Below, one piece after another: positions 9,274 to 28,081 of a DNA stretch of 64,000 nucleotides. The translations under genes were made by a program, and so were the position numbers. This stretch comes from Vulcanimicrobiota bacterium. GTDB taxonomy: Bacteria; Vulcanimicrobiota; Xenobia; Xenobiales; JADMJV01. Where the stretch lies: NCBI GenBank assembly GCA_019637395.1, contig JAHBVR010000018.1, forward strand, positions 1-64,000. Direction: 5' to 3'. Positions within the stretch are counted from its first letter, which is position 1. The number at the start of each line of letters is the position of its first letter. The notes under the pieces were generated by a model. It did no database searches. It had not been told where the DNA came from and saw nothing but the letters and a program-made list of their open reading frames with translations.

Positions 9274-10428
9274 TCAGCGATCACGGAGATTTGAATCGCC
9301 GCTGGCAGCGGCCTGCCAGTAGCAAACCAGAGAGACTCCCGCCAGCAGGAGAAAGGCGGGGCTGAAGGTGCCGGTCAACTGATAGACGCCGCCCACCAGC
9401 AGGGGCGGGAAAAAGCCGCCCAGGCCGCCGGCGGCGCCCACAAAGCCGGTGACCGTGCCGACCGAGTGCGGGAAGTGCTCAGGCACCAGCTTGAACACCG
9501 CTCCATTGCCCATGCCGATGCCGGCGGCCATCATGAGCGCGCCCAGAGTGAAGGGAAGGAGATGCGGCAGCGACATGAGCAGAGCACACGCCGATAGGAA
9601 CGGGAAGATCGCGCGAAGCACGGTGTTGCCGCCCAGCTTATCGGCCAGCCAACCGCCCAGCGGGCGCAGGCCGGTGGCCAGCATGATGAAGCCGGCCGTG
9701 CGCATTCCGGCGTCCCGGGCACTCAGGTTAAACCATTCGGTCAAGAAGATGGGCAGGTAGCCGGCCAGGGCCACAAAACCGCCGAAGGTCAGGAAGTAAT
9801 ACAGACTCAAGCGCAAGGCTTGAGGGTTCCGGGCCGGCGCCAGCATCTGGGCCAGGGTGGGAGCGGGGGCGCGCCTTTCGGCGTCGCGGGCGAACAGGAT
9901 AAAGATGACCATCCAGACGGCCAGCAGCAGGGCGAACATCCAGAAGCCCCAGGCATAGCCGAGTGCTCCCACCAGCAGGGGGGAGCCATAGGCCGCCAGC
10001 GATTGGCCGACGTTACCAGCTCCGTAAATCCCCAGCGGGGTCCCCTGCCGGTCAGGTGGATACCAGCGGCTGACGAAGCCAACTCCCACCGAGAAAACGG
10101 CCAGGGCGATGCCGGCGAAAAAGCCGCACAACAGCAGTTGAGGAAATGTCTTGACCCAGGCCATGGCCACGGCCGGCACCACCGAGGCCAGCATGACCAG
10201 GGAAAATATCTTGCGGCCACCGTAGCGGTCGGCCAGCCAGCCCAGGGGAATGCGCCCCAGGCTGCCGAGCAGGACCGGCGTGGCCACCGCCAGGCTGGCC
10301 TGCAGCGGGCTTAGCTGGAGCTGCTTTTTGAGAATCGGCATCATGGCCGAGATAGAGCCGAATACCGCGAAGCAGAGGGCAAAGCCCACGGTCGCCAGCA
10401 ACAGTTGCGCGTTCGGTCGGCTGAGCAT
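9274..10428 (-). CDS. narK: Nitrate/nitrite transporter, NarK family
   Basis: A 384-residue major facilitator with 12 predicted helices. The nitrate-porter signature glycine motifs are visible: [11 protein letters not shown] in helix 5 and [18 protein letters not shown] in helix 10/11, plus [12 protein letters not shown] between helices 2 and 3. It imports nitrate or exchanges nitrate for nitrite. This fits a cytoplasmic nitrate-reducing active site, because the catalytic subunit upstream lacks an export signal. Last gene of the RIC-nar operon; its ATG region touches the end of the small membrane gene. Confidence 0.93.
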
Positions 10429-10637
10429 CAGTCGTCCTGGCGATACAGGAAGCGCAGCAGTCCCAAGTTAAACGCCAGCAGGCTGCTGCTGGCCAGGAAA
10501 GCCGGCCAGATAATGGCCCGGTCGCCGCCCATGTAAGCGTTCATGGTGGCCGTCAACAGCCACAACTGTAAGATGAGCAGCAAGCTGGTCAGGCACAGGA
10601 CCCCGTGCACCACGGTCATTTTCTGATCCAAACGCAT
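10428..10637 (-). CDS. Small two-helix membrane protein of the nar-like operon
   Basis: A 69-residue protein with two predicted membrane helices ([19 protein letters not shown] and [18 protein letters not shown]). It overlaps narK and the Rieske gene by single bases, so it is translationally coupled. It may be a structural subunit of the membrane arm of the nitrate-reducing complex. I cannot assign a named family with confidence. Confidence 0.7.
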
Positions 10638-11143
10638 CAGCTGTTGCTCCGTTGCAGGCCGATGGCGAAAATTTCACGGTCGGTGATTTCCAAGGTGACT
10701 CGGGGCAGCGGGCGGCGGGGCGGACCTTGAATCGGACGTCCACTGTCGATATCGAAGGCCCCCTCGTGACACGGGCAATAGAATCGCTTTTGTTCTGGTT
10801 GGGGGACCACCGCGCAGGCCAGATGAGTGCACTTCTGGTGAAAAGCCACCCAGCGCTTCTCCTCGAGACGCACCAGCAGGCAGGGCTCGTGATCATCCGG
10901 GTAGTTGAAGGTCCGGCTCTGGCCCACCGCCAGCTCGTCCAGGCCACACAGGCGCAGCCGCGGAAAACTCTGACCGGTACCGCTCTGCAGCAAATAATCC
11001 AATCCGATGCATAACTGCCCGGTGGCGAAACCACCGCTGATAAGCACCAGAAATTTCACCAAATCGCGGCGGGAAACGTAGTGGTCGGCGGCCCAATCGA
11101 CGGGAAAATCCTGGCGCCAGGCCTCGGGCTCTTTTTCTTTCAT
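10637..11143 (-). CDS. Membrane-anchored Rieske 2Fe-2S protein
   Basis: A 168-residue protein. An N-terminal SRRDLVKFL followed by a hydrophobic helix looks like a Tat-type anchor, as in bc1 Rieske proteins. The cluster-binding boxes are CTHLAC and CPCHEG (two Cys and two His). It is coupled to the ferredoxin subunit (4-nt overlap) and to the small membrane protein. Inferred role: an electron carrier on the outer membrane face within the nitrate-reductase-like complex. A Rieske subunit is not part of classical Nar or Nap. Confidence 0.85.
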
Positions 11144-11784
11144 GGCTCTTCCTCCTGATACATTCCCAAGAGCAGAATATCGGGTTGACTCCCGAGCGCA
11201 TCCGTGACTTTCAGTTGTTCGAGGGCTGAGTCTCGGGGAACCAGCACATTGACTTTGGTTTTGACGGTCTGCTGGCCGAAGCGGAATTCATTGATGGGGC
11301 GGGAGCGGGGACGTTCTTTTTGCATTTGCTCGCGGGTGCCGTAAAACAGGGCTCCGCTGGGGCAAACGGTGGCGCACATGGGCTTTTTGCCCACCGAGGT
11401 GCGGTCGTAGCACATATCGCACTTCATCATCAGATTGAAGCCGGACACGGAAGCACCGCGTCCCGACTCCATTTTGGGCACGCCGAAGGGGCAGGCCAGC
11501 ACGCAGTTACTGCAGGCGATGCAGCGCGATTTGCGGGCCGTCTGCACCACCCCGTCGGGAGTGCGCTTGATGGCGTCGGCCGGACAGACCTGCGCGCAGG
11601 TGGGGTCTTCGCAGTGCATACAGACCACCGGCACCGTCTGCACGCTGCGTTCCCGATCGATGGTCTCCAAATGGATCATGGAGACCCCTTTATGGGTATC
11701 GCATTCCGAGCAGGCCTGAAAACAGGCTTTGCAGCCGATACAGCGGTTGGCGTCGATGAAAAATTCCATCTTCTCAGGAACCAT
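11140..11784 (-). CDS. Four-cluster ferredoxin subunit (NarH/DmsB/NrfC-like)
   Basis: A 214-residue protein with four cysteine groups typical of 4x[4Fe-4S] electron-transfer subunits: [37 protein letters not shown] and [11 protein letters not shown] with a later [10 protein letters not shown]. It has no Tat signal, so it works on the cytoplasmic side. It would pass electrons from the cytochrome b or Rieske to the molybdenum subunit encoded just upstream (11-nt overlap). Confidence 0.9.
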
Positions 11785-13990
11785 GTTCGAGCCTCCGGAC
11801 TCTCACGGCGCAGGCCTTGTACTCGGGAATCTTGGAGATCGGATCCTGGGCGGCGATGGTCAGCCGGTTGATACTTTCTCGTCCGGCCCAATGGTAGGGT
11901 ACAAAAACCGTATCGGGGCGAATGGTATTGACCACTTTGGTCGTCAATTCAATGCTGGAGCGCCGCGATTCGACCAGGGCGGTGTCGCCTGCTTTCAAGC
12001 CCAGTTTGGCGGCCAGCTGCGGATGCACTTCCAACCAGGGGGCCGGATGCATTTCCGCCAGCGGCCCGATACGCCGAGTCTGGGTGCCCGACAAAAACTG
12101 GCTGATGACCCGGCCGGTGGTGAGAATCAGGGGATATTCCTCGTCCACCTCTTCCTGGGGCGGCGAATAGTCGGCTACCTGAAAGCGCGCTTTGCCATCG
12201 GGGAAATAGAACGGGCCCTGGCCCCGGGCCACCACATTCCACGAATCTGGTTCAAAAAGCCGCGGAGTTCCCGGATGCTCCTCGCTCGGGCAGGGCCAGA
12301 AAACTCCGTAGCTGGCCTCGATTTTCTCGTAAGTGATGCCGGAATAATCGACCACTCCGCCCTGGCTGGCGCGTCTCAATTCATCGAAAATCTGGCCGGG
12401 ATGCTGAAATTCAAAACCCTGCGGGCGCTTCAAGGCGGCCGCCAGGTCCTGGATAATGCGCCAATCCTGGCGCGCCTCGCCCGGACAATCGATAGCTTTG
12501 CGAATACGAATGACGCGGCCTTCGGCGCTGCACACCACGCCTTCATCTTCTTCCTGTAACGAGCCGGGCAGCACGATATCGGCATGTTGGGCGGTTTCGT
12601 TGAGAAAGAAGTCGATGGCCGCGTAAAATTCCAGCTTGTCCAGGCAGCGGGCCACGAATTCGCTGTCCGGCAAAGAAACCTTCGGATTGAAGCAGAGAGT
12701 CAGCAGGCCCTTGATTTCCCCCTGATCGATCTTGCGAAAGAGTTCGTAAGCATCGACCCCGGCCTGGGGCAAGTCATCGGGAGCGACGCCCCAAATGCCG
12801 GCCACATGGGCCCGGTGCTCCGGGTTGGAAATGTCGCGTCCGCCCGGGAGTTGATCGCATTTTTGGCCATGTTCGCGCCCTCCCTGGCCGTTGGCCTGGC
12901 CGGTGATGGTGGAATAGCCACAATTCTCGCGTCCGATTCGGCCGGAGGCCAGCACGATGTTGATGGCGCCCAGCACATTTTGCACCCCATGGCTGTGATG
13001 TTCGATACCGCGTGCATGCATCAGGAAGCTGGTTGAGGCCGTGCCCCACCATTCCGCCGCCTGCTCCACCAGCTTCTGATTCAGTCCGCAAACCTGGGCG
13101 GTGCGCCGGGGCGTCCACTCCCTGACCGACTCGGCCAGCTTTTCGAATCCCACCGTGTATTTCTCGATGAAAGCGTGATCCAGCCAATCCTTCTCGATCA
13201 TCAAGTGGAGAATGCCGTTGAAAAGGGCGACGTCGCGCCCCGGTTTGATCGGCAGGAAAAGATCACAGGTGCGCGCCAGCGGCGTGACGCGCGGGTCGAC
13301 CACCACCACCCGGGCTCCCTGTTCCCGGGCCTGCCACACGTAGTGAGTGGTGATGGGAGCGCATTCCGCCACGTTGGCGCCGCTGATCCAGATCAGCTCC
13401 GCTCCCAGGATATCCGACCAGGGATTGCCGCCCCGATCGACTCCGAAAGCCTTCTTATTGGCGGCGCCGGCGCTGACCATGCAGAGGCGGCCGTTGTAGT
13501 CAATGTAAGGCGTGCGCAGGCAGACGCGGGCGAATTTGCCCATCAAATAGGCCTTCTCGCTGGTCAGACTGGCGCCCGACAGCACCCCGAAGGCCGCGAA
13601 TCCATGCTGCTCCTGAATCTTCGCGATAGCGGCGGCCGTTTGGGCGATGGCCTGGGGATATTCCAGGGGGCGAAAGCCCCCGGCGGCGGCCGGATCTCGC
13701 TGCAGGGCGGTCAGCAGGCGATCGGGATGGCCGCCCTGCAGATAACGCTTGATCCCCTTCGGGCAAAGCATACCGCGGTTGAACGGGAAGTCTTCCCAGG
13801 GTTCGAATCCGACCACCTGCTGGTGGGCAACTTTCAATTGAATGCCGCATTGCTGTCCGCAAAAGCAGCAATGGGTTTTTACCAGCCGATCGATCTCCAG
13901 GCCCGACTGCAGATGCTTACCACCCGGAAACTGCAAATGCGGTCCGTAGTGCGCCTCCAACTGCTCAGGCGCTACCGGTAATTTAGACAT
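11774..13990 (-). CDS. Molybdopterin nitrate reductase-like catalytic subunit
   Basis: A 738-residue protein from the ATG at 13990, which overlaps the upstream stop; longer starts run into the cytochrome b gene. An N-terminal [4Fe-4S] site has C41-x2-C44-x3-C48-x27-C76. C170 in [16 protein letters not shown] is the position of the Mo-ligating Cys in NapA/NarB/NasC-type enzymes. The cofactor-binding [12 protein letters not shown] and the C-terminal [18 protein letters not shown] are also seen. It has no Tat motif, so it should be cytoplasmic. Nitrate as substrate rests on narK in the same operon and on NarB/NasC resemblance. Formate dehydrogenase-like activity is the main alternative. Confidence 0.82.
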
Positions 13991-15026
13991 CGCGCGAAAT
14001 TCCTTTCCAAGCCTCGCCTTGAGACAGGCCCAACAAAGCTCGGCGGCAGGCGGGACAGACTTGCTGATAGTGCCGCTGCTCATCCAGCTCGTAGTGAAAC
14101 CCCAGTTGTTTTTCGACCGTCATTAAATCCTTGACGTGCATTTGGGAAGCAAAGGGACGGTCGCAGCGCAGACAGGGCTGCTGGGTTTCCTTGCCGCCGA
14201 CCTCGTGGTAGAAATTCACGCCCAGCTGGGCGGGCCGCTGAAAAATGTGAAAGAACTTGCCGAAAGGCAGCCAGATCAAAGTGGCGATCACCGTGACCGC
14301 GTGCAGCAGGGCCAGGAACTCGTAGCCGTAACCTTTCATCCAGGTATAGCTGGCCGTCAGCATCAGTCCGGTGACGCTGATGGCAAAGAGCAAGATGAGC
14401 GGCGCCCAATCTTCGGCAAACTGCTGCAGCGCCTGCGCGCCCGCGTCCCGCAAGCGCCGGCGCAGAGCCATCAGGCAACCGGCGATGACCAGAAAAGAAG
14501 CCCACACCAGCGCATGGAAGAGGAGAAAGCCAAACAGGCTCTCGGTGGGAAAGGCAAAGGTCGGGATTCCGAACACATGCACTCGATAAAAGTCGAGACG
14601 ATCCGCGTCGGTGGCGAAATGAATCCAACCGAAGACCAGCGGGAAGGTCACGGCCGAAGCCAGGATACAGCCCCACATCAGCAGCATATGCGTTAGCCAG
14701 CGCCGTTTGCTGCGCCGGAAGATAAATTCGTTGGCGGCGAATTCCCCCAGCACGCGATGCAGCCAGACCCGGCAGTTGGCCAGCAGATGACCGGGCCGAA
14801 AGAAAACCGTCCAACCACGCCGCCAGTACATGGCGGTGGGTGGACGCTGCAACCACATGGCATAACGATAGGCCACTCCGAAAGTGGCGAAAAGCGTGGA
14901 AAAAGTATAACCGATCAAAGCCGCGTCAAAATTGTGAAAGTCCCGCGAGCCGGCGGCGATGGCAAAAGCCAACAGCAGAGTGGCTGTGAGAGCCAGCATC
15001 CCGGCATTCCAACGTTCTCGCGTCAT
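13983..15026 (-). CDS. Cytochrome b (NarI/HdrE-like) with C-terminal CxxC-CxxC tail
   Basis: A 347-residue membrane protein with six predicted helices. Candidate heme histidines lie in [19 protein letters not shown] and LLHAVTV with GKFFHIF. Residues from about 290 form a cytoplasmic tail with CLRCDRP and CPACRRA, a likely metal knuckle. It probably oxidises quinol for the Mo/Fe-S subunits downstream. It follows RIC after 60 nt, where a small GGGGC/GCCCC hairpin (15069-15084) and an ATCGT-TTT-ACGAT palindrome (15046-15058) lie. No Dnr box is seen there, so read-through from the RIC promoter is likely. Confidence 0.78.
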
Positions 15027-15086: not shown

Positions 15087-15773
15087 TCAGGTGGCCAACT
15101 GAAGAGCACGGGGAAAGAGGATATGGTTCTCGGCATGAACGTGGAGATGTGTATCTTCTTCGAGTTCCGCCAGTCCTGACAACATGGAGCGATAGGTCGT
15201 GCAGGCTCCCTCCGGGGGCGCGTAGCCCCGAGTCAGCTCTCTGAGCTGAGCCAAGGCGTCACCCGATTGGCCGTGCTCAGTCTCCATGACTCCGATGATG
15301 CGCTGCAGCGGAACCTGGGTGTGACCGTCTCTTTCCAATCGGCAAATGGCCGGAAAGAGAATCTGTTCTTCCTTGGCCATATGCTCCAGCATCTCCGACG
15401 AGAAGGCGTGGAATATGCGCCGCACTTCGATGAGTTCCGGGTGGCTGCTTCCGTGCACGGCCGCCACCCGTTCCACCTGGCGAGAGAGCAAGGGTAAGCA
15501 TTCTCGCAGGTAGTCGTGGTGCAGGCTTACGATATGCTCCACCAACTGGGTCAAATTCAGGTCCTGCAGTGTCTTTTCCGCGGGGTCCTCCAGGCTCTGA
15601 GCAATTTGCTCCAAGACAGCCTTGACATCGAGTGCTTTGTCCGCACAGGCGGCGCTCAAAGAGCGGCGGCCGTGGCAGCAGTAGTCTATACCCAGTCTGT
15701 CCATGAGTCGCGACAGAGAAGGGCGATGGGTGACCAGGTCGGCCACTTTGGTCTCAGCATCCAGGATATTCAT
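15087..15773 (-). CDS. ytfE: RIC/ScdA/YtfE di-iron protein, Fe-S cluster repair
   Basis: A 228-residue protein. The ScdA_N domain has the paired-cysteine DYCCHG motif. A hemerythrin-like domain follows with the metal ligands SLHHDYLRE, LEHMAKEEQILFP, METEHGQSG and HVHAENHILFP. RIC proteins repair Fe-S clusters damaged by NO. The ATG at 15773 is chosen because AAAGGAGT stands 8 nt before it. A Dnr-type box (15833-15846) is centred 66.5 nt upstream and predicts a transcript start near 15798 with a 25-nt leader; TACCGT (15805-15810, minus) is the -10. The nar-like genes follow. Confidence 0.92.
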   Translation of the reverse strand: MNILDAETKVADLVTHRPSLSRLMDRLGIDYCCHGRRSLSAACADKALDVKAVLEQIAQSLEDPAEKTLQDLNLTQLVEHIVSLHHDYLRECLPLLSRQVERVAAVHGSSHPELIEVRRIFHAFSSEMLEHMAKEEQILFPAICRLERDGHTQVPLQRIIGVMETEHGQSGDALAQLRELTRGYAPPEGACTTYRSMLSGLAELEEDTHLHVHAENHILFPRALQLAT

Positions 15774-15832
15774 GTCGGGATACTCCTTTCGTTCCAGAGT
15801 CACCACGGTAATCTGAGGAGGGCGCTCTATCC

Positions 15833-16672: not shown

Positions 16673-17796
16673 AGACTTCACCGGACTGGGACCCGCGCGC
16701 CCCCGAGGTGCTCCAAGATCACGGCGCCGCCTGCAGCCACATGCGCGGGCACTGCCCGGTCGCTTACAGCCCCTATTTGGGCTGGTCCCTCTTTCGCCAT
16801 CAAGACATCCAGCGCGTACTGCACGATCACGAGACCTTCAGCAACGTGGTTTCAACTCATCCGGCTGTGCCCAACGGCATGGATCCCCCCTTGCATACAC
16901 ACTATCGGCGCCTTCTCGACCCCTATTTTTCGGCTACCGAGATGGAGCGCTTTGAGCCGGTCTGCCGGGAGATCGCGGCCACCTGCCTGCGCTCCTTGCC
17001 CGGACAAGGTGAGGTGGATTTTTGTGAGAGCTTCGCCGAGCCCTTCGCTCTGAGTGTTCAGTGCGCTTTCACGGGCTGGCCCGGGGAGGTTAAAGAGCGG
17101 CTGCGGCAGTGGCTAAAGAACCAACAGAAAGCCACCCTGGCCGGTGATCGCGAAGCGACTGCCCGCCTGGCCGGCGAATTTGAAGATTGCGTCCGGGGCA
17201 TTCTGGCGGCCCGCCGGCTTCAGCCGCAAGCCGACCTGACCACGCGCCTGCTGCAAGAGACCCTGAGCGAGACTGAGATCATCAGCATCCTGCGCAACTG
17301 GACGGTGGGAGAATTGGGCACCATCGCCGCCGCCGTCGGCATTCTCGTCCACTACCTGTGTGTTCATCGAGAAGTGCAAAGCAGGCTGCGCCGCCAACCG
17401 GCAGAGCTGGCCCCGGCCATCGAGGAAATCCTGCGGCTGGAGGCTCCGCTGCTCTCCAATCGCCGCCTGGTCAAGCAGGCCACGCAAATCGGCCAGCACC
17501 GCCTGGAAGCCGGCGACCGCGTCACCTTGATGTGGGCCTCAGGCAACCGGGACGAAACGGTGTTTCCTGACTCGGCCAGCTTTCGGCCGGAACGGGACCA
17601 GGAGCAAAACCTGCTGTATGGCTCCGGCATTCACGCCTGCCCGGGGGCTCCGCTGGCGCGCCTGGAATTGAGGGTGGCGCTGCAATGCCTGCTGGAAGGC
17701 ACGCGGGAGCTGGAGTTGAGCCAACAACGGGAGCCGGTCCGAGCCACCTATCCCGCCGCCGGCTTTGCCAGCCTTCCCATCGTCGTCAAGGCTTGA
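16669..17796 (+). CDS. Cytochrome P450
   Basis: A 375-residue P450 from a GTG overlapping the methyltransferase stop (GTGA). The heme-thiolate loop is YGSGIHACPGAPLAR, the ExxR motif is EEILR, and the family's PERF-like motif is FRPER. The I-helix reads WTVGELGTIAAAVG. Aligned on the usual AGxET, the acid and alcohol positions appear to be Leu and Gly, so conventional O2 activation may be altered. With the strong Dnr-type box it is a candidate for an NO-linked or peroxygenase-type P450; that function is inference only. It converges with the membrane gene at 17786 (11-nt overlap). Confidence 0.88.
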   Translation: MKTSPDWDPRAPEVLQDHGAACSHMRGHCPVAYSPYLGWSLFRHQDIQRVLHDHETFSNVVSTHPAVPNGMDPPLHTHYRRLLDPYFSATEMERFEPVCREIAATCLRSLPGQGEVDFCESFAEPFALSVQCAFTGWPGEVKERLRQWLKNQQKATLAGDREATARLAGEFEDCVRGILAARRLQPQADLTTRLLQETLSETEIISILRNWTVGELGTIAAAVGILVHYLCVHREVQSRLRRQPAELAPAIEEILRLEAPLLSNRRLVKQATQIGQHRLEAGDRVTLMWASGNRDETVFPDSASFRPERDQEQNLLYGSGIHACPGAPLARLELRVALQCLLEGTRELELSQQREPVRATYPAAGFASLPIVVKA

Positions 17797-18274
17797 GCTG
17801 CCAGTGCCCTTCTTCCTGGAAGGTGATCAGTTGCACGCGGCCGGCGCCAAAATCCAGTTGCCCTTGATAGCCGGGAAGCAGGTTCTCCTTGACTCCTTCC
17901 AGAGGTTCCGGCCGGAACTCCACCTCTACCCGGTGGCGCCCGGGAGCCACCGCCAGTTCTTCCAGAACGGAAAGGGGCCGATCATGGCGCACCCCGGCCG
18001 GCTCGATGCGTTTTTCCAGCAGCGGCCGGCCATCCAGAAGGACCCGCAAAAGGTAACTGCGCATGCGCACCTGGTAGGCCTGATCCGGCGGCAGCCGCAT
18101 GTGGGCCGGCAGATTGGGGTCCTGGGCGATCGGCACCTTGATCTCCTGACCGTTGCAGCGCCAACTGAGCCGCAAGGTGGCGTGGGCGGGGCTTTCTCCC
18201 CATGGGATCCGGGCTGACCAACCGAGCCCCAGCAAGAGGATAAAGAGACCGAATAAGAGTCTAAGTCTGGCCAT
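17786..18274 (-). CDS. Membrane-anchored periplasmic protein of the NO-reductase operon
   Basis: A 162-residue protein with one N-terminal helix (LLFGLFILLLGLGW) and a beta-rich exported domain that includes APGRHRVEVEF. No cofactor motif is visible and I do not recognise a family. It is last in the operon and overlaps the cytochrome b fusion gene by 14 nt. It may be an assembly or structural factor for the NO-reducing complex. Confidence 0.65.
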   Translation of the reverse strand: MARLRLLFGLFILLLGLGWSARIPWGESPAHATLRLSWRCNGQEIKVPIAQDPNLPAHMRLPPDQAYQVRMRSYLLRVLLDGRPLLEKRIEPAGVRHDRPLSVLEELAVAPGRHRVEVEFRPEPLEGVKENLLPGYQGQLDFGAGRVQLITFQEEGHWQLKP

Positions 18275-19835
18275 CCTGGACCTCCGAACTACGGCAACGA
18301 AGTTCTCCCTCAGGAAGGGACTGCCCGGCCGGATCTTTCAGCAATTCCTGGCGAAAAGCTAAAAGCTCCCGCCGCGCCCGCTCCACCTCCACGCCGGGAC
18401 AGGCAAACAGACGCACGCGGCGCCGATCCACCCGTGCCTGCAACTCCGCTTCGCGGTCTTCATAAACCCGCAGGCGGAGCCATTTCGGACCCTCACGCTG
18501 CGAACAATCTCGCTCCGGACAGGTGAGCACGAAGACACCCGCCGCCCCCTTGCGCAGAAAAAGCTCCAGCACCGAGGTATGAATGGACCCGCAGCAGCCG
18601 GTGGGATAGCAATGAATACCCGGAATCGCTGACCAGCCAGGGTGTTCTCCGCTGCCCCAGCGGCAGGCGAGCAGAACCACGTCTCCCTCCCGCCAGTCCC
18701 GAGTGGACGCAAACTGTTCGGCGGCACGCAACTGATCTCGGCCGGTCCGCTGCGGCGGCCCCACTCCCATGGGCGCGCAGGAAGCGGCGCACAGGCCACA
18801 ACTAACGCACAGATCCGAGTTGACCAGCGCCACCAGGGGAGAATGCCGCCCGTCCAGCAAGTGGGTGCGCTTGACCATCTCGATGGCATCGTAGGGGCAA
18901 TCTTGCACGCACTGGGTGCAGCCGGTGCAACTGCTCTCGTCCACCACCGAGGCCTGAGCCCGGCCGGGCCCGTCCACGGCCCACCACCAGGGCAGAGAGC
19001 CCAATCCCAGCAAGAGCAGCCCCAGAGCCAGCAGAGTTCCGCCTGTCCCCAGCTTCTCAGCGGCCGGTAACCAGAAACCATACCAGGGGTCCAGATAAAC
19101 CCTGCCCGGAAGGCGTAAGAGATCGGCCGGCGCGGCCAGCGGCACAGGCAGGCACAGAGCCAGCCCGGCCAGGCCCCAACCATAGGCACGAACCAGATGG
19201 CGTTCCGGCCAGTAGCGGGCCCGGGCCGTTCTGGAGGTATGTGCCAGAAAGAGGAAGACCAGCACCAGCGGCAAGGCCACATGCAGAAAGATCAGCATGA
19301 AGAAAAAGGATTCTCCGAGCGCCTGGTTATCGGCAAAGATGCGGCCCGGCGGCTCGGAAAAGAAGGGCAGGCCGGCCAGGAACTGGATGCCCTGCACCGC
19401 TAGCTTTTCCCCTTGCTCATCCCAGACCATGACCAATCCCAGCACACCGATGAAGATCATCAGTCCCAGCAGCGCCAGACCGCTCAACCAGGCCCGGCGG
19501 CGGGGCCCGGAAGTGCGCCCCCCCTGCAGCATGCGCAGAGCATGAAAGAAAACGGCCACCACAGCCGCATCCGAGGCATAGCGGTGCAGTCCACGCAACC
19601 AGCCGAGCGCCCATTGCCCCTGAACCCATTGGACCGATTCGTAGGGAGCGCCGACCTTGTAAAAGAAGAGCAGGGGCAGGCCGCTGGCCACCACCAGGGC
19701 CAGCAAGTAGACGGCCAGCACTCCGCTTTGATAAGTGGGATTGTAGTCGGGGCCGAAAAACCAGGAGACCAGGCGTTCCCAGGGCGCCAGCCAGCTTCCC
19801 AGAAGGCGCGATAGCTTTGGTTTACGGGGTATCAT
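18261..19835 (-). CDS. Cytochrome b / 2x[4Fe-4S] ferredoxin / MvhD-like fusion protein
   Basis: A 524-residue fusion. The ATG at 19835 is chosen because it overlaps the SCO stop and begins the cytochrome b homology. Residues 1 to about 320 are a bc1/b6-like cytochrome b: two H-x13-H pairs (from HRYASDAAV and from HVALPLVLV) predict two hemes b. Next come CTGCTQCVQDCP and CVSCGLCAASCAP, two [4Fe-4S] motifs. The last ~150 residues match the MvhD/hydrogenase delta-subunit domain (LLACRWGS, CYPTGCCGS, LTCPERDCS). It probably feeds electrons to the CuA subunit encoded upstream. The combination is unusual. Confidence 0.85.
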   Translation of the reverse strand: MIPRKPKLSRLLGSWLAPWERLVSWFFGPDYNPTYQSGVLAVYLLALVVASGLPLLFFYKVGAPYESVQWVQGQWALGWLRGLHRYASDAAVVAVFFHALRMLQGGRTSGPRRRAWLSGLALLGLMIFIGVLGLVMVWDEQGEKLAVQGIQFLAGLPFFSEPPGRIFADNQALGESFFFMLIFLHVALPLVLVFLFLAHTSRTARARYWPERHLVRAYGWGLAGLALCLPVPLAAPADLLRLPGRVYLDPWYGFWLPAAEKLGTGGTLLALGLLLLGLGSLPWWWAVDGPGRAQASVVDESSCTGCTQCVQDCPYDAIEMVKRTHLLDGRHSPLVALVNSDLCVSCGLCAASCAPMGVGPPQRTGRDQLRAAEQFASTRDWREGDVVLLACRWGSGEHPGWSAIPGIHCYPTGCCGSIHTSVLELFLRKGAAGVFVLTCPERDCSQREGPKWLRLRVYEDREAELQARVDRRRVRLFACPGVEVERARRELLAFRQELLKDPAGQSLPEGELRCRSSEVQDGQT

Positions 19836-20688
19836 GCGGGACCTCGAGGCGCGCCACGGCGTCGCGCAACCAGGCCTGACTGGGGCTATTGAAGCGATAG
19901 CGAAGGCGGGCCCGGGCATCGACCACCAGCACCAGCGCGGGGTGCAGGATCTCGCCGGTATTGGGATTCCTTTCAAAAGTCAGCGAGAAAGCGGCCAGCG
20001 CGCTTTCCACCTGGTCCACCTCGCCGCCCAACAGGAGCGAATTCTCCGGCAACCGCCACCATCGTGCCAGACCGGCCAGCGAGCCGCAGGTATCGCGGCG
20101 GGGGTCGAGAGTGACGATCGCCAGCCGGCAGCGGCCCGACTCGGCCACCGCCACCAGATTTTCCAGCAAGGAGGGGCAGACGGTCTGGCAATGCGCGTAG
20201 GCGAAGCTGATCAGAGTGGTGTCACCCAGCAATTGCCGGGCCGTGAAGGCTCGCCCGAACTGGTCCTGCAGCTCGGGGGTGGGGCAAGCTTCATCCAACT
20301 CCGGGTAGTCTCGAGGCAGCGGCCCGCTGCTCGGGCTGCTCGACAAGCTTGGAGCCTGGGCCACTCTCCAGCTCAGGTAGCTCAGGGTGGAAAAGGGCAG
20401 GCTCAATAAGACAACCAGCACCAGAGGCCTGGGCCAGAGGCGCGTGAGGCGCTCCAGCTGAGCCCGGCAATCTCGGCCCATCAAGGCAAACAAAGCCAGC
20501 AACATCGGCAGCGGAGCGGCCAGCGTAATCCATCCATGCAGGTCGGGCAGGCCGTTCTCCAAAGTGCCGAAGCACAGGTCACGCGTGCGCACCAACCAGT
20601 CCGGACCGCCCTGGGCCACCGGCGAGAGGGCCAGCCAGACCCAGGCGGCGCTGGTCAGACACCAGAAGAGGTAGAGCCAGAGCGCCAC
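19822..20688 (-). CDS. SCO-family copper chaperone with membrane domain
   Basis: A 288-residue protein. The N-terminal ~115 residues hold three membrane helices. A SCO/thioredoxin domain follows with CQTVC (C-x3-C), LDPRRD and the distal His in EILHPALV. It starts at a GTG four bases after the subunit I stop. The likely client is the CuA centre of the neighbouring subunit II (C158/C162), because SCO proteins assemble CuA. Confidence 0.85.
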   Translation of the reverse strand: MALWLYLFWCLTSAAWVWLALSPVAQGGPDWLVRTRDLCFGTLENGLPDLHGWITLAAPLPMLLALFALMGRDCRAQLERLTRLWPRPLVLVVLLSLPFSTLSYLSWRVAQAPSLSSSPSSGPLPRDYPELDEACPTPELQDQFGRAFTARQLLGDTTLISFAYAHCQTVCPSLLENLVAVAESGRCRLAIVTLDPRRDTCGSLAGLARWWRLPENSLLLGGEVDQVESALAAFSLTFERNPNTGEILHPALVLVVDARARLRYRFNSPSQAWLRDAVARLEVPHDTP

Positions 20689-20691
20689 GGC

Positions 20692-22398
20692 CTAGCCGAC
20701 CTTCCAGAGCATCGAGAGAACTTTCCAGTTGGTGAAGTAGTAGAGCACGAAGCACACGAAGAAAATCACCACCAGCACCACCGTGCCCGGATTGCCCTGG
20801 CGGTGGGCTTCATCTGCCTGCTCTTGCGAGTGGGTCTGGCGGGGTAAACGAACCACCCCGGGGGGCAATCCCGGCCCGCCCGAGCGAATCTCTTCATCGC
20901 TCAGAGTTTTGCCGAAGAAAACACTGGCTACGGCGATCAGGCAGTAACTGATACCGCCCAGGAAAGCCAGGATGCCGCCCACGCCCATGGCGGCCAGAAA
21001 CAGGTCGACCACGGGAGGAAACTGCACGGGAAAGGGCGCGTGGGTGAAAGATACATCCCAGTGCCGGCGCGGCACCCCAAAGGTACCGGCGTAGGTCATG
21101 GCGATACCCATCAGGGTAATCCCCGCGCCGAAAAGATAGGGTTGGATTTGCGCCAGTTTGTAGAAAGCCACGCGCTTGCGGAAAATCAGCGGCAGCAGAT
21201 AATAGGTGACTCCCATAAAGCAGAGGGCGGTGCCCCCGACCACGGTCATATGAAAATGGCCCGGCAAACGCATGGTGTTGTGAGCGATGATGTTGATCTG
21301 CTCGGTCCCGATGACCACCCCGGTAATGCCGCCGCCGAATCCGAAAATCACCAGCGATAGCCACAGGGCCGAGAAACCCGGGTCTCCCCAGGGAGCCCTG
21401 GTGAGCCACTGAAAGCGGCCCTGGGTGAAGCCGCGCAGACGCTGGCCGGTTTCAATGCCGGCCGGCACCGTAAAGCCGTGCACCATACTGGCCAGCACGG
21501 CCAGATACATGGCGTAGCTGGTGTTCCAGACTTTCCAGGCCGGTCCCACTCCCGGATCGACCAGCAGGTGGTGAGCCGAGGCCATGGAGATGAACAACAC
21601 GTAGAGAAAGAAGGCGGTGCGGCTGACTCGCTCATTGAGGACCACTCCCCCTACCGTCAGGGCGGCCAGCAGGTACCAACAGGAGACGTGGGCGGCCACG
21701 TTGATTTGTTGAGAAGAGTGGCCTAGAGCCCAGAAAACCATGCGGTAGACTTCTGGATCCAGCTGCATCCAGCCCAGCGACCAGAAGAAGGTGGGCACAT
21801 AGATCAAAGCGCCGTGAACCAGCGTGATGACGGCGATGATGGCCGCCGTCAGCGCTCCGAAACTGACTAGAGGTATCGAGCCCGTATAAGTCTTCTCGCG
21901 GCGCGCCACCACCAGGGTGGCGAAAAAGAGTAACGTCGAGATGAGTGCTCCCACCGCAAAGAGGATGATTCCCAGATAGTAAGCCGGGTGGGCTTTTAAA
22001 GGCACGTAGGAAGTAAAGAGCACGTCGGCCTTGCCGGCAAACACGAAGTAGTTGGTGGTGCAGGCGCCGATCAGCATCAGCCAGTAGCCCAGCCAGCCGA
22101 GCTTGGGGGCGGGCTGCCGGCAATTGAGCAAAATGGGGCCGGCAAAATACAGCACCGCCATTTCAAAAAAGATGATAAAGAAGATCAGCATGTTCAGGCC
22201 GTGAGCTGTCAGGATTCGATAGTACCAATCGGCCGGCAGCAAATGCACCGCCTGCCAGCGCGTCAAGGCCAGCAGCAAGGCGGCGCACACTCCGATCAGG
22301 AAATGCACTACCGCGGTGACGGCGTGCCAACGCAGGAGCGATGCTGCTTGCGATTCGATTTTCAGTCCGGTGACCGGACAGGTGCGAAAGGAAATCAC
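20692..22398 (-). CDS. Heme-copper NO reductase subunit I, eNOR-like
   Basis: A 568-residue protein with about 14 helices, homologous to heme-copper oxidase subunit I, closest to B-family (ba3) oxidases. Ligands: H66 (HGLNM, low-spin heme), H227, H276 and H277 (CuB), H381 and H383 (GHFH). The Tyr cross-linked to the CuB His in O2 reductases (GHPIVY in ba3) is replaced: here GHSSQQ places Gln231 at that position. This substitution, with a CuA subunit II, is what I recall for the eNOR family of NO reductases. It lacks the cNOR/qNOR glutamate motif (HLWVEG). NO reduction to N2O is therefore inferred, and the nos and nir neighbours support it. Confidence 0.85.
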   Translation of the reverse strand: MISFRTCPVTGLKIESQAASLLRWHAVTAVVHFLIGVCAALLLALTRWQAVHLLPADWYYRILTAHGLNMLIFFIIFFEMAVLYFAGPILLNCRQPAPKLGWLGYWLMLIGACTTNYFVFAGKADVLFTSYVPLKAHPAYYLGIILFAVGALISTLLFFATLVVARREKTYTGSIPLVSFGALTAAIIAVITLVHGALIYVPTFFWSLGWMQLDPEVYRMVFWALGHSSQQINVAAHVSCWYLLAALTVGGVVLNERVSRTAFFLYVLFISMASAHHLLVDPGVGPAWKVWNTSYAMYLAVLASMVHGFTVPAGIETGQRLRGFTQGRFQWLTRAPWGDPGFSALWLSLVIFGFGGGITGVVIGTEQINIIAHNTMRLPGHFHMTVVGGTALCFMGVTYYLLPLIFRKRVAFYKLAQIQPYLFGAGITLMGIAMTYAGTFGVPRRHWDVSFTHAPFPVQFPPVVDLFLAAMGVGGILAFLGGISYCLIAVASVFFGKTLSDEEIRSGGPGLPPGVVRLPRQTHSQEQADEAHRQGNPGTVVLVVIFFVCFVLYYFTNWKVLSMLWKVG

Positions 22399-22408
22399 CC
22401 GAGTGTCC

Positions 22409-22942
22409 TCACTCTTCCACCAGGATTTTGCCGGTCATAATGTGATGTCCGACTCCGCAGAACTCGTTGCAGATGATGCGCAAATCACCGGAGCGATTCG
22501 GCATCACTTTGAGTCCATAATCATAACCGGGCACGACCTGGAAATTGAGGTTCATGGGGTACAGGCTGAACCCGTGATTGATATCGAAAGAGGAGAGATG
22601 CAGAGTGTAGCTGGCCCCCTTCTTCAACTTGAGCACGGGCCTCCAGGACCACATCGATGCCTCGAGATAGAGATCGGCTCCCGGTGGAGGCTGAACGACC
22701 GGGATGCCCTTTTCTGTACCCACCTGGTATTCCTGAATAAAGCGTTCGGTGCGCTGGCGAAATTCTTGGGGAGTGGTACGGCCACGAATTCCCGAGGGAT
22801 TCTGCCCGCCTTTCCAATGCCAGAGGGGCATGATCGCGAACATGATCATACACCAGACGAAGGAAACCTTGATCCAGGTGTTTTCCTGGGAGCCAGCCGG
22901 CTTCCACCAAATTCCTTGCGGCGACGTCAGAGCGGAGTGCAC
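22409..22942 (-). CDS. NO-reductase subunit II with CuA site
   Basis: A 177-residue protein: one N-terminal helix (about 24-40) and a cupredoxin domain. The complete CuA set is visible: H123 (FDINHGF), C158, E160, C162, H166 and M169 (CNEFCGVGHHIM). It accepts electrons from a periplasmic donor and passes them to the hemes of subunit I. A CuA site distinguishes it from cNorC. The GTG start is 6 nt after the small-subunit stop; the exact start is uncertain. Confidence 0.9.
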   Translation of the reverse strand: MHSALTSPQGIWWKPAGSQENTWIKVSFVWCMIMFAIMPLWHWKGGQNPSGIRGRTTPQEFRQRTERFIQEYQVGTEKGIPVVQPPPGADLYLEASMWSWRPVLKLKKGASYTLHLSSFDINHGFSLYPMNLNFQVVPGYDYGLKVMPNRSGDLRIICNEFCGVGHHIMTGKILVEE

Positions 22943-23247: not shown

Positions 23248-25254
23248 ATGAAAACCTCATGGAAATGGCCGGCCGCCATCACCACGCTGACGGGGTTGCT
23301 CTTTGCCGGAGCCTGCACCCCCAACCCAACGGGCAACGCCCCCGCCGGCGGCGCCATTCCCACCGACGTCATGAGCGTAGCCCGGGAGCGCGGCCTGACG
23401 CCCGACGACCTGTATGCCGCCGCCAAAACCTACATGCCTTCCGGCAAACACGACGACTACGTACTCTTTGCCTCCGGTGGACATAGCGGCCAGGTGCACG
23501 TCATCGGCGTGCCCAGCATGCGCCTGTTGAAGACCATCGCCGTCTTTACTCCCGAACCCTGGCAGGGCTACGGCTACGGAGGCGGCCCTTCTGAAGTGCT
23601 TAAAAAGGGAAACATGCCCTCGGGCAAAGAGTTGACCTGGGGGGACACGCATCACCCCAACCTCTCGGAAACCAAGGGCAGTTACGACGGCCGCTTTCTC
23701 TTCATCAACGACAAGGCCAACGCGCGCCTGGCCGTCATCGATCTGCGCGATTTCGAGACCAAGCAGATTATCAAAAACCCGAATGCGATCTCCGACCACG
23801 GCGGTTCCTTCGTGACTCCCAACACCGAATATGTGGTGGAAGGACCGCAATATGCCACGCCGATCGGCTGGGAGTATTCTGACATCAAAAACTACAAAGA
23901 GAAGTATCGGGCCCTGTTGACGTTCTGGAAGTTCGACCCGCTGGCGGGCCGAATCAATGTGGCGCAATCTTTCCAGATGGAACTTCCCCCCTACTTCCAG
24001 GATCTGGCCGATGCCGGCAAGGGGGCTTCCGACGGCCTGGTCTTTGTCAACTCCTTCAACACCGAGATGGCTACCGGCGGAATCGAGAAGGGTGAGCCTC
24101 CCTTCGAAGCGGGCGCCAGCAAGAACGACGTGGACTACCTGCATATCATCGACTGGCGCAAAGCCGCCCAGATCGCCAAATCGGGACCGACCCGGACCGT
24201 CAACGGCATGAAAATCATCGGGCTGGATACGGCCGTGAAAGAAAAGCTGCTCTACTTCACCCCGGAACCCAAAAGCCCGCACGGAGTCGATGTTACGCCC
24301 AGTGGCGAGAGCATCGTGGTGGGCGGCAAGTTAGACCCTCACGTAACCGTCTATTCCACCGCCAAAATTCGGGCCGCCATGGCCAAAGGCTCGCAAAATA
24401 AGGACCCCTTTGGAGTTCCCATCTTGAGCCTGGATGACACCAAAGAGGCTCAGGTGGAATTGGGCCTGGGTCCGCTACACACCGTGTTTGACAATCAGGG
24501 CTACGCCTATACCTCGATGTTCCTGGACTCGGCCGTGGCCCGCTGGACCCTGGGCGGCGCCGACAAAGGCCAGCACCCCGAACCGGACTGGACGTTGGTG
24601 CAAAAACTACCCGTTCACTACAACATCGGCCATATCGCCTCGATCGAGGGCGACACGGCCACCCCCGGCCAGGGCTACGTGGTGGCCCTGAACAAGTGGT
24701 CCACCGACCGCTTTCTCAACCTCGGCCCCCTGCTGCCCCAGAATTTCCAACTGGTCGACTCGGCCCGTCCGGGTGAATCCATGAAAGTTCTCTACGATAG
24801 CCCCATCGGCGTGGCCGAGCCGCACTATGCCCAATTGATGCGCGCGGATCGGCTCAAGCCCTACGAGGTCTATCCCTTCGTGGGCTTCAACCCGGAAACC
24901 GGCCAGAAAGATCCCAACGCCGTGCTCTCGCCCAAAGACGCGCGTATCGTGCGCAAGGGAAAAGTCGTCGAAATCTTCACTCCCGTCATCCGCAGTCACT
25001 TCTCCCCTGAGCACGTCACCGTTAATGAAGGGGACACGGTTATCTGGCACCTCACCAACATCGAAAGAACACGTGATGCCATCCATGGATTCTGCATCGG
25101 AGGCTACAACATCAACCTCAGTCTTGAGCCCGGAGAACACCAGACGGTTACCTTCAAGGCCGACCAGCCCGGCGTCTTCCCCTTCTACTGCACCGAGTTC
25201 TGCTCGGCCCTTCACCTCGAGATGATGGGCTACTTTATGGTGAAGCCGCGATGA
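23248..25254 (+). CDS. nosZ: Nitrous-oxide reductase, Sec-lipoprotein (clade II type)
   Basis: Reduces N2O to N2. It is 668 residues. The leader has no twin-arginine motif and ends in a lipobox (LLFAGAC), typical of clade II (Sec-exported) NosZ. The seven-bladed propeller with the CuZ histidines is represented by THHPNLSETKG, SDHGGSF and SPHGVDVTPSG. The C-terminal CuA domain has HGFCIGGYN and CTEFCSALHLEMMG. A GAGAGG lies about 10 nt before the ATG. It heads the nos operon, divergent from the NO reductase. Confidence 0.97.
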   Translation: MKTSWKWPAAITTLTGLLFAGACTPNPTGNAPAGGAIPTDVMSVARERGLTPDDLYAAAKTYMPSGKHDDYVLFASGGHSGQVHVIGVPSMRLLKTIAVFTPEPWQGYGYGGGPSEVLKKGNMPSGKELTWGDTHHPNLSETKGSYDGRFLFINDKANARLAVIDLRDFETKQIIKNPNAISDHGGSFVTPNTEYVVEGPQYATPIGWEYSDIKNYKEKYRALLTFWKFDPLAGRINVAQSFQMELPPYFQDLADAGKGASDGLVFVNSFNTEMATGGIEKGEPPFEAGASKNDVDYLHIIDWRKAAQIAKSGPTRTVNGMKIIGLDTAVKEKLLYFTPEPKSPHGVDVTPSGESIVVGGKLDPHVTVYSTAKIRAAMAKGSQNKDPFGVPILSLDDTKEAQVELGLGPLHTVFDNQGYAYTSMFLDSAVARWTLGGADKGQHPEPDWTLVQKLPVHYNIGHIASIEGDTATPGQGYVVALNKWSTDRFLNLGPLLPQNFQLVDSARPGESMKVLYDSPIGVAEPHYAQLMRADRLKPYEVYPFVGFNPETGQKDPNAVLSPKDARIVRKGKVVEIFTPVIRSHFSPEHVTVNEGDTVIWHLTNIERTRDAIHGFCIGGYNINLSLEPGEHQTVTFKADQPGVFPFYCTEFCSALHLEMMGYFMVKPR

Positions 25255-25898
25255 GTGAGCTGAAAGTCGTGCTGGCCGACGGCAGCCAGCGGCCGCTCAA
25301 CGACTTCTTCTGGCCGCACCTGCTGCTGATGCTGGCCAGTCTCTTGCTCTGCCTGTCGGTCTTCCTGCCCTTCTGGTCCATCAAGATGAATGCGCCCCAG
25401 TTCCCCGATGGACTGAAAGCGGTTCTCTATATCGATCGCGTCGAAGGCCACGTGCAGGAGATCGACGGGCTCAATCACTACCTGGGCATGCCTCCGCTGG
25501 ATGAAGGCGGCAAGTTAGAGCGCAAGGTTTCCTTGGGAGCCGTCGGCCTGATGAGCCTGCTCATCTTAGGGACCCTGTTTGTGCACAACCGCTGGGCCGG
25601 CGCCATGGGTGTACCGGCTCTGGTCTTCCCCTGGGTTTTTCTGGCCGACCTGCAGTTAATTCTCTACCGCTATGGCCACAGTGTGGACCCCGAATCGGCT
25701 CTGGGGGGAGCCATCAAGCCCTTTACTCCGCCGGTGATAGGCGTCGGGAAGATCGGTCAGTTTATTACTGAAGCGTCCTTTGGAGCCGGTTTTTACCTCT
25801 CTCTGGCGGCGGCCGGTTGCGTGCTGGCCGGCCTGTGGATGCACCGCCGCATCTACCGTGAAGTGGCTCTGGCTCGCCGGCGCGCGGGAGTGCCATGA
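25251..25898 (+). CDS. nosB: NosB-like membrane protein
   Basis: A 215-residue protein with four to five predicted helices; the first is LLLMLASLLLCLSVFLPFW and a periplasmic loop follows (SIKMNAPQFPDG, DGLNHYLGMPP). Proteins of this kind stand directly after nosZ in clade II nos clusters and are called NosB; their function is unresolved. Its ATG overlaps the nosZ stop, and its stop overlaps the nosD start. Confidence 0.75.
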   Translation: MSELKVVLADGSQRPLNDFFWPHLLLMLASLLLCLSVFLPFWSIKMNAPQFPDGLKAVLYIDRVEGHVQEIDGLNHYLGMPPLDEGGKLERKVSLGAVGLMSLLILGTLFVHNRWAGAMGVPALVFPWVFLADLQLILYRYGHSVDPESALGGAIKPFTPPVIGVGKIGQFITEASFGAGFYLSLAAAGCVLAGLWMHRRIYREVALARRRAGVP

Positions 25899-28081
25899 AG
25901 AGGTGGCTGGCCTGGCTGCTGCTGACCGTCCCCGCCCTGGGCCGGCCGGTCAGCGATGACCGCCAGTTGCAACAGGCCCTGGCCCAGGCCACCCCCGGGG
26001 AAACCATCGAGGTCTTACCCGGACACTATCGCGGTCCGCTGATTTTGAATCGGCCCGTGCGGTTGCTGGGCCAGGGTTGGCCGGTCATCGACGGTCATGG
26101 CCAGGGCACCATCATCACCGTCAATGCCGCCGACTGCCATATCGAAGGCCTGGTCATCCGCAACTCCGGTAGTGAACCGGAACTCGACCATGCCGGCGTC
26201 ACCCTCAATCAGCCGCGCGCCCGGGTCAAGAACAATCGATTCGAGAACGTGCTTTTCGGCATCTTCGTGGCTCGCTCCGACGATAGTTTGATCAGCGGTA
26301 ACGATATCGCCAGCCAGCAACGCTACGACCTGGGCCGCCGCGGCGATAGCGTGCGGGTTTGGTACAGCAAACGCGTCCAGGTTCTCGACAATTACGCCCA
26401 CCATAGCCGCGACCTGGTGGCCTGGTATTCTTCCGACCTGATCATGCGGGGCAATCGCGTCGAGGGCGGCCGCTACGGCCTGCACTTCATGTACTGTGAC
26501 GGAGCCCGGGTCGAAGGCAATCTGCTCAAAGACAACTCGGTGGGCATCTACACCATGTACAGCCAGGGTTTGAAGCTCGAATCCAACCGGGTCATCGGCT
26601 GCCGCGGCGCCAGTGGCTACGGCCTGGGCTTCAAGGATGCCGGTGATGTGACCGTGCGCAACAACATTCTCTGCGACAACCGGGCCGGCATCTTTGTCGA
26701 CAGCACCCCCTTGAAGCCCGATAGCTATGCGCGCTTTGAGGATAATGTGGTGGCTTACAACGATATCGGCGTGGCTCTTTTTCCCTCCGTAAGCGGCGCC
26801 CAATTTTCGGGAAATCGGTTTCATGAAAACTACGAACAGGTCTCGCTGGAGGGCGGGGGCCAGCAAAAAGGCAACGATTTTGGCGGGAATTATTGGAGCG
26901 ATTATGCCGGCTGCGATCTGGACGGCGACGGCCGTGGCGATCTTCCCTATCGTGCCGAGCGCCTTTTTGAACGCCTGGCCGACCATAACCCCAAGCTGCG
27001 CCTCTTCACGCAAACTCCCCTGCAGGAAGCGCTGGACTCGGCCGCACGGATGTTTCCGCTGGTCAATCCTCAGGCCAAGCTGGAGGACAGCGCTCCTCTG
27101 ATCAGCGCGGGTGTTTTACCGGCCCCCGAGCCGCAGCCGGCCGCTCGAGCTCACTGGCTGTGGTTGAGCACGCTGGTCGCGCTGGCGCTGGTAACCGGCC
27201 GCCTGCCGGCTCTGAGAAAGGTGGAAAGGAAACGCGCTATGTCAACCAGCCTGCGAATCCAAAGGGTCAATAAAAGCTATGGACCGAACCAAATATTAAA
27301 GGATCTTTGCCTGGAATTGGAGCCGGGCCGAGCGCTGGCCTTGTGGGGCCCGAACGGGGCCGGTAAAACCACGGTCATTCGCTGCTTGCTCGATCTGATC
27401 GAGTACGAAGGGGAGATCTACCTCGGCGCCTATTCTTGTCGCCGACAAGGACGCCAGGCCCGCGGTCTGCTCGGCTACGTCCCCCAGGAACTGAACTTCC
27501 ATGACGATCTCGGCGTGCTGGAAACCATGGAATTCTATGCTGTGCTGCGTTCCGCCGCTGTGGACAGCATCGGGCCCCTGCTGGCCCAGGTTGGACTGGC
27601 TGAAGTGGGCCAGCGCAAGGTCGGCCAGCTCTCCGGCGGGATGCGCCAGCGCCTGGCCCTGGCATTGGCTCTGCTGGGAGACCCACCACTGCTGGTCCTG
27701 GACGAGCCGACCTCCAATCTGGACGCCGAAGCCCGCGACGGTTTTTTGAATCTGCTGCAACAATTGAGGCAGCAAGGCAAAAGTCTTTTGTTTACCACTC
27801 ACAGGCGCGAAGAAGTTCTACGTCTGGCCGATCAGGTGGCCCTGCTGCAGGCCGGCTCGCCGGCCCGGCTGTGTGCCCCCGCCGACTTGCAAACGCACAA
27901 TCTGAAAATTCTTTTGGCCGGGGAGCAACTCGACTCAGCCGTGCAGGTCTTGCGTCGCGATGGCTTCCAGCCGGCGCGCAATGGCAGCGGGGTTTACGTC
28001 GAGGTGGCCAGGGACGCCAAAGCCGCCCCCATTCAAGCCTTGTTTTCGGCCGGAATCCCGGTGCTGGACTTCGAGATTTAG
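25895..28081 (+). CDS. nosD-nosF: NosD-NosF fusion: periplasmic beta-helix, TM helix and ABC ATPase
   Basis: A single 728-residue frame. After a signal peptide, residues ~20-400 are a NosD right-handed beta-helix (CASH repeats such as NNRFENVLFGIFV and FGGNYWSDYAG). A helix follows at ~420-437 (WLWLSTLVALALVTG). From Met449 comes NosF: Walker A GPNGAGKT, signature LSGGMRQRLA, Walker B LLVLDEPTSNLD, and the switch His in TTHRRE. NosDFY normally consists of separate proteins that mature the copper sites of NosZ. The fused topology (outside, membrane, inside) is consistent. An internal ATG at 27239 with its own ribosome site may release free NosF. Confidence 0.92.
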   Translation: MKRWLAWLLLTVPALGRPVSDDRQLQQALAQATPGETIEVLPGHYRGPLILNRPVRLLGQGWPVIDGHGQGTIITVNAADCHIEGLVIRNSGSEPELDHAGVTLNQPRARVKNNRFENVLFGIFVARSDDSLISGNDIASQQRYDLGRRGDSVRVWYSKRVQVLDNYAHHSRDLVAWYSSDLIMRGNRVEGGRYGLHFMYCDGARVEGNLLKDNSVGIYTMYSQGLKLESNRVIGCRGASGYGLGFKDAGDVTVRNNILCDNRAGIFVDSTPLKPDSYARFEDNVVAYNDIGVALFPSVSGAQFSGNRFHENYEQVSLEGGGQQKGNDFGGNYWSDYAGCDLDGDGRGDLPYRAERLFERLADHNPKLRLFTQTPLQEALDSAARMFPLVNPQAKLEDSAPLISAGVLPAPEPQPAARAHWLWLSTLVALALVTGRLPALRKVERKRAMSTSLRIQRVNKSYGPNQILKDLCLELEPGRALALWGPNGAGKTTVIRCLLDLIEYEGEIYLGAYSCRRQGRQARGLLGYVPQELNFHDDLGVLETMEFYAVLRSAAVDSIGPLLAQVGLAEVGQRKVGQLSGGMRQRLALALALLGDPPLLVLDEPTSNLDAEARDGFLNLLQQLRQQGKSLLFTTHRREEVLRLADQVALLQAGSPARLCAPADLQTHNLKILLAGEQLDSAVQVLRRDGFQPARNGSGVYVEVARDAKAAPIQALFSAGIPVLDFEI
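27223..27241 (+). promoter_or_regulatory. Internal ribosome-binding site and ATG for NosF
   Basis: GGAAAGGA (27223-27230) stands 8 nt before an in-frame ATG (27239-27241) that begins the NosF homology. No stop separates it from NosD, so the same frame can yield a fusion and a separate ATPase. Confidence 0.6.

Follow-up and report, generated by a model that had tools for sequence, protein, structure and literature searches.

What does a single protein that joins a di-heme cytochrome b, two [4Fe-4S] ferredoxin motifs, and an FlpD/MvhD domain do in the operon of a nitric oxide (NO) reductase? Such a protein, hereafter the fusion, is encoded in a 64,000-nucleotide stretch of a Vulcanimicrobiota genome, which we refer to as the window. 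Its putative partner enzyme, eNOR, is reportedly a family of CuA heme-copper NO reductases and is predicted to be a widespread N2O source. We find no established electron source for eNOR in the accessible literature. The fusion almost always travels with eNOR of one class, and thus it is probably how this enzyme either gets its electrons or gets built.

Operon and domain architecture

The genes of the operon are tightly packed on the minus strand in the order subunit II, subunit I, SCO, fusion, and small5 (Table 1). The 3' end of SCO overlaps the start of the fusion, and the fusion stop overlaps the start of small5, by 14 nt each.

Table 1. Features of the predicted eNOR operon and of the fusion within the window.
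Feature	Position	Strand	Remarks
eNOR subunit II, CuA cupredoxin	22409..22942	-	177 aa; H...CNEFCGVGHHIM
eNOR subunit I, heme-copper catalytic subunit	20692..22398	-	568 aa; GHSSQQ
SCO1/SenC copper chaperone	19822..20688	-	CxxxC and His conserved; TM helices at the N-terminus
Fusion, cytochrome b - 2x[4Fe-4S] - FlpD/MvhD	18261..19835	-	Single open frame, 524 aa
Cytochrome b domain, residues 31-199 (H84, H98, H185, H199)	19239..19745	-	Pfam
D-P-W, residues 249-251, aligned to the cytochrome b PEWY/PDWY quinol-site motif	19083..19091	-	
Two [4Fe-4S] ferredoxin motifs, residues 297-354	18774..18947	-	Pfam
FlpD/MvhD domain, residues 386-498	18342..18680	-	Pfam and MvhD-aligned Cys
small5, one TM helix and predicted P-side beta-sandwich, HMR motif	17786..18274	-	Small protein at operon end

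The initial annotation had placed a CuA-type NO reductase in this operon, and the residues of both subunits support that reading. Subunit I has GHSSQQ instead of H-P-E-V-Y, which puts Gln at the position (H+4) of the active-site Tyr of oxygen reductases. This replacement is the eNOR signature (PMC8756737), and the same Gln is present in 21 of 21 aligned eNOR sequences. A Haloarcula match carries Tyr here; it is an oxygen reductase and was rejected as an eNOR. The CuA ligand set of subunit II is complete (H plus CNEFCGVGHHIM, with the pattern C-x-E-x-C-x3-H-x2-M). On these residues, the operon is predicted to hold an eNOR.

The 524-residue, three-part protein described in the initial annotation was recovered by domain searches and ligand inspection. 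Three Pfam families match above their curated cut-offs: Cytochrome_B (residues 31-199, E 3.5e-13), Fer4 pairs (297-354, E 6.6e-10), and FlpD (PF02662, 405-498, E 4.4e-9, 36.8 bits against a cut-off of 22.3). Positions 570-768 of the NCBIfam HdrA2 model cover the ferredoxin and FlpD parts jointly (residues 294-498, E 2e-14). Among PDB sequences, the N-terminus matches cytochrome b6 and the ferredoxin part HdrA; the C-terminus, searched alone, matches MvhD and related chains, and the MvhD cysteines align with C391, C414, C439, and C444 of the fusion. A b-type cytochrome of the ExtP type (NF040969) was rejected as an assignment, with 70 bits against an equivalog cut-off of 290.

The heme ligands lie in a four-helix domain and form two pairs, H84-x13-H98 and H185-x13-H199, and the cluster cysteines are C303/306/309/313 and C343/346/349/353. 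We show that neither the four heme His nor the eight ferredoxin Cys vary among 17 eNOR-linked fusion homologues (23-65% identity). The same holds for C414 and C439 of the FlpD domain; C391 is kept in 15 of the 17 and C444 in 14. Judged by these residues, the fusion is predicted to bind two hemes, two [4Fe-4S] clusters, and usually an MvhD-type cluster. The Asp of the PEWY/PDWY-aligned site, in the region after helix E, is also found in 15/17 fusions, with the rest of the motif degenerate (LDPWY in the window). None of these 17 fusion proteins has a heme-c motif (CxxCH). In a further homologue, L152, a single CxxCH (residue 310), which we considered as a fused cytochrome c, falls at the ferredoxin cysteine motif.

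An AlphaFold2 model of the fusion, built with 16 natural homologues, reached a mean pLDDT of 87.7 and a pTM of 0.85, and its closest match in a fold search was bc1 cytochrome b. Pfam searches detected neither PF00032, the C-terminal cytochrome b module, nor a Rieske subunit in the fusion or its operon, and no flavin domain in the fusion. Hydropathy and family knowledge suggest six transmembrane helices, with the ferredoxin and FlpD parts facing the cytoplasm, although some helices are left indistinct by the simple hydropathy scan.

In seven other loci, small5 is a C-terminal extension of the fusion, following a transmembrane segment. Thus, the two proteins probably work as one unit. The beta domain of small5 would lie on the outer face of the membrane. 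Its only near-invariant motif is HMR, in which Defluviimonas has Asn in place of His. In domain searches small5 matched nothing in Pfam or NCBIfam, and its best PDB fold match was not significant (E 0.013).

Upstream of the operon and divergent from it, a nos cluster starts with a Sec-type NosZ (23248-25254, plus strand; TIGR04246, 822 bits) whose N-terminus resembles a lipobox (LLFAGAC). A 215-aa membrane protein (25251-25898, plus strand; no Pfam or NCBIfam match) sits between NosZ and NosD, with a 4-nt overlap with each. A NosD beta-helix and a NosF-like ABC ATPase share one 728-aa ORF (25895-28081, plus strand; PF05048 at 143-339, PF00005 at 468-607), followed by a NosY-like permease and then NosL. 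A ScdA/RIC-type hemerythrin lies near the eNOR operon (15087-15806, minus strand); DUF542 or hemerythrin genes also stand beside eNOR in Thermus and Defluviimonas. A possible nitrate reductase cluster (9274-15026, minus strand) comprises an MFS transporter, a Rieske protein, a 4Fe-4S protein, a molybdopterin enzyme closest to NasC but under the cut-off, and a weakly QmoC-like membrane protein.

Linkage of the fusion to eNOR

Both the architecture and its association with eNOR extend beyond the window genome. The whole architecture recurs as single ORFs in many genomes, and hence it is not a product of chance. We called eNOR presence at E<=1e-80, took fusion profile matches at E<=1e-40, and counted phyla via the kinship labels of genomes. 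In a set of 388 genomes drawn from many phyla, the fusion occurs in 16 and eNOR in 18, with 15 genomes carrying both (Fisher P = 3e-23). A 180-genome sample of a second phylum (that of G350) gave the same picture, with 46, 45, and 43 genomes, respectively (P = 2e-35). In the window's phylum, four genomes have a close eNOR (75-100% identity), and exactly these four have the fusion.

The two genes are also neighbors. We inspected 46 eNOR-clade loci, of which 42 had enough flank, and in 41 of these 42 the genes for eNOR II and I adjoin the fusion, in operon or divergent layout. Thus, the architecture is not frequent away from NO reductases, a possibility that the initial annotation had raised against its own reading. 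In the second phylum, fusion-small5 is usually divergent from II-I-SCO. On a plasmid of the alphaproteobacterium Defluviimonas, the order is II-I-cyoE-SCO-fusion-small5-hemerythrin. SCO shares the gene cluster with the fusion in nearly every fusion locus, and heme O/A synthase genes occur in several. The Thermus and Thermomicrobium plasmid eNORs have neither fusion nor SCO adjacent.

Most exceptions to co-occurrence involve short contigs or lowered completeness. The fusion was found without eNOR in G197 (a 6-kb contig; genome 84% complete) and, in the second phylum, in G671, G704, and G740, the contigs of the latter two being about 6 and 5 kb. Conversely, eNOR was found without the fusion in G180 and G681 (both at a contig edge), in G738 (88% complete), and in G167 and G314, which have Thermus-like sequences. 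G681 and G738 belong to the second phylum. Locus L159 of G671 stands alone among the eNOR-clade fusions: it has full flank and a small5 neighbor, yet its genome lacks eNOR (E<=1e-80). A search of genome contigs with the single fusion protein as query returned one close relative only, and viral contigs yielded no relative.

Fusions linked to eNOR group in a single clade (SH-aLRT 95 in a quick maximum likelihood tree of 169 columns, with long branches for G359 and L077). Fusion distances track those of eNOR I (Mantel r 0.82) and II (r 0.79), with 0/5000 permutations reaching these values, although vertical descent may explain part of this. We consider it improbable that the fusion is a separate module against NO or redox stress, co-inherited with eNOR but making no contact with it, such as a quinone:ferredoxin oxidoreductase that restores redox balance. 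Such a module would be consistent with the distant paralogues that G211 and G352 carry apart from any NO reductase, and with the eNOR-clade copy in G671. Against it stands the fact that fusion and eNOR co-occur almost one to one, and as neighbors, in two phyla and on a plasmid, together with the correlated distances.

Two groups fall outside the eNOR clade: the paralogues L074 and L077, and a set of cytochrome b-ferredoxin proteins. The former (L074:8741-10585 and L077:4233-6311) are cytochrome b-ferredoxin-FlpD proteins away from NO reductases, beside Ser/Thr kinase-like genes, and have a different C-terminal domain without HMR. The latter, the nearest relatives outside the clade, come from clusters that also encode a PDWY cytochrome b and a stand-alone FlpD (L075 8001-11951, L078 8001-11801, and L111/L177). 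Judged by eye, the second cytochrome b of these clusters seems to retain just one His pair. We regard these clusters as candidate bifurcating complexes in their own right. Matches in G224, G366, G258, G483, and G501 were rejected as eNOR fusions, being split cytochrome b-ferredoxin genes or weak partial matches; those in G224 and G366, at E<=1e-40, are cytochrome b-ferredoxin genes of Rieske-type clusters.

Possible roles: electron supply or assembly

The fusion and small5 would form one membrane redox unit of the eNOR system, and electron supply to eNOR is tentatively its most likely job. A cytoplasmic reductant would dock at the FlpD domain, or quinol would be oxidized in the membrane domain. 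Electrons would then cross the membrane by way of both [4Fe-4S] clusters and both b hemes and arrive at the outer face, where small5 would hold the unit against eNOR. There they could enter CuA of subunit II and reach the heme-copper NO-reducing site of subunit I. The initial annotation had suggested that the fusion could link NO reduction to quinol or to a low-potential donor in the cytoplasm; its anatomy is compatible with such a role.

We favor this role because the operons mostly have no c-type cytochrome of their own. Few ORFs beside them have a heme-c motif, and with none in the fusions, the fusion appears to be the operon's only electron carrier besides eNOR. Electron transfer at the outer face also fits a Chloroflexi ORF (RME88945.1) that joins a cytochrome c domain to cytochrome b6, DMSOR_beta-like, and FlpD domains, listed without comment in PMC8756737 (Table A3). 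The initial annotation named no characterized complex of this composition; the architecture is nevertheless already listed in print. We found no description of the architecture as an eNOR partner in the openly accessible literature. The enzyme itself is already known, and priority for its fusion partner is uncertain.

Several observations weigh against electron supply. Transfer from the cytoplasm to the outer face would cost membrane potential, no conserved cytoplasmic donor gene lies beside the operon, and C391 and C444 of FlpD are not strictly conserved. The chemistry of eNOR itself needs no fusion, since the fusion is absent beside the Thermus and Thermomicrobium eNORs and wholly absent in G167 and G314. 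Nor is the fusion the sole quinol route or a plain replacement of complex III, although PF00032 is absent in 9 of 16 fusion genomes, including that of the window (G000). The alternative complex III marker ActD occurs in 20 of the 21 genomes tested, and thus another route from quinol to the periplasm probably exists.

The fusion travels with SCO, and therefore a role in assembly fits equally well. The main rival to electron supply, absent from the initial annotation, is thus a reductase for maturation or reactivation, which would act outside the catalytic path and deliver reducing equivalents at the outer face to Cu(II), the SCO disulfide, or oxidized CuA. We regard this rival as serious and possible, if less likely than electron supply. 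Besides the constant SCO, which is missing beside the fusion-less Thermus and Thermomicrobium eNORs, it draws on the heme O/A synthase genes of several clusters and on a general resemblance to CcoG and NosR. CcoG is the cupric reductase of cbb3 oxidase assembly, and its layout is similar to that proposed here: membrane helices, a cytoplasmic two-cluster ferredoxin, a transmembrane helix, and an outer-face beta domain. The conserved His-Met pair of small5 also points this way, as His-Met pairing is frequent for periplasmic Cu(I). However, CcoG manages without b hemes or FlpD, and no CcoG/FixG or NosR domain was matched by Pfam in the fusion or small5. Furthermore, the second phylum keeps SCO with II-I while fusion-small5 is divergent, and the HMR His is not kept in Defluviimonas.

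An unlikely further reading is quinol bifurcation, which the Qo-like remnant and the Rieske-linked relatives keep in consideration. Menaquinol would be oxidized at a Qo-like site; one electron would pass to CuA of eNOR in the place of a Rieske protein, and the other would cross both b hemes to the ferredoxin/FlpD side and yield a low-potential reductant. The Asp at the PEWY/PDWY position suits such a site. Apparent Rieske proteins, a PDWY cytochrome b, and a stand-alone FlpD accompany the nearest non-eNOR relatives, and quinol bifurcation has been proposed for anammox Rieske/b complexes that include an NAD(P) reductase on the cytoplasmic side (PMC12954380). Nevertheless, the eNOR clusters are without a Rieske protein, the fusion is without PF00032 and its motif is degenerate, and no cytoplasmic acceptor gene is conserved nearby. 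It is doubtful that eNOR and its partner form a Rieske-less bifurcating enzyme that sends quinol electrons to NO via CuA and to a low-potential acceptor via FlpD. If they did, denitrification would yield reduced ferredoxin.

In searches for flavin domains and FlpD proteins, bifurcation of the flavin-based, Hdr type finds no support; the initial annotation had offered bifurcation as a possibility. No bifurcating flavin-binding subunit lies in or beside the operon, no conserved flavin module was seen near fusion operons, and neither the window genome nor eight other fusion genomes encode another FlpD protein. A function linked to Hdr was set aside on the FlpD result.

Electron supply and assembly alike would make the fusion a dedicated redox partner of nearly all eNORs of the fusion-linked type, in two phyla and a proteobacterium. 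The fusion thus bears on how eNOR operates: as a plain enzyme supplied by cytochrome c, as one that takes electrons from quinol or the cytoplasm, or as one whose assembly calls for a special reductase. It can serve as a marker that divides two kinds of eNOR operon, and it aids the annotation of clusters now named "cytochrome c oxidase" and "cytochrome b N-terminal domain-containing protein".

Comparison with known systems

With the eNOR family, the window subunits share the Gln-for-Tyr replacement and the full CuA ligands. The fusion and small5 are an extra, widespread partner, of which the Thermus and Thermomicrobium eNORs have no adjacent copy.

The fusion shares with cytochrome b6/bc1 the fold, both His-x13-His pairs, and the Asp at the PEWY/PDWY position, but it has neither a Rieske partner nor the PF00032 half, and ferredoxin and FlpD are added, presumably on the cytoplasmic side. 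The order of these added parts and the MvhD-aligned cysteines are those of MvhD/FlpD and the HdrA2 C-terminus. In the fusion, however, this module is attached to a membrane cytochrome b and has no HdrA flavin domain. The same domain order is found in the Rieske/cytochrome b clusters of G366, G224, and G258, where it is split over two genes; these clusters have a PDWY cytochrome b, an apparent Rieske protein (G366 and G224), and no NO reductase partner.

As a comparison of working principle only, CcoG/FixG and NosR are also membrane polyferredoxins that serve a copper enzyme and have an outer-face domain. They have no Pfam family in common with the fusion, and both are without a cytochrome b of its kind. 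In the anammox Rieske/b complexes (Kustd1480-1485 and Kuste4569-4574), a cytochrome b is tied to a cytoplasmic Fe-S module, as in the fusion; there, Rieske and multiheme c proteins stand where the fusion has eNOR, and a flavin/NAD(P) site stands where it has FlpD.
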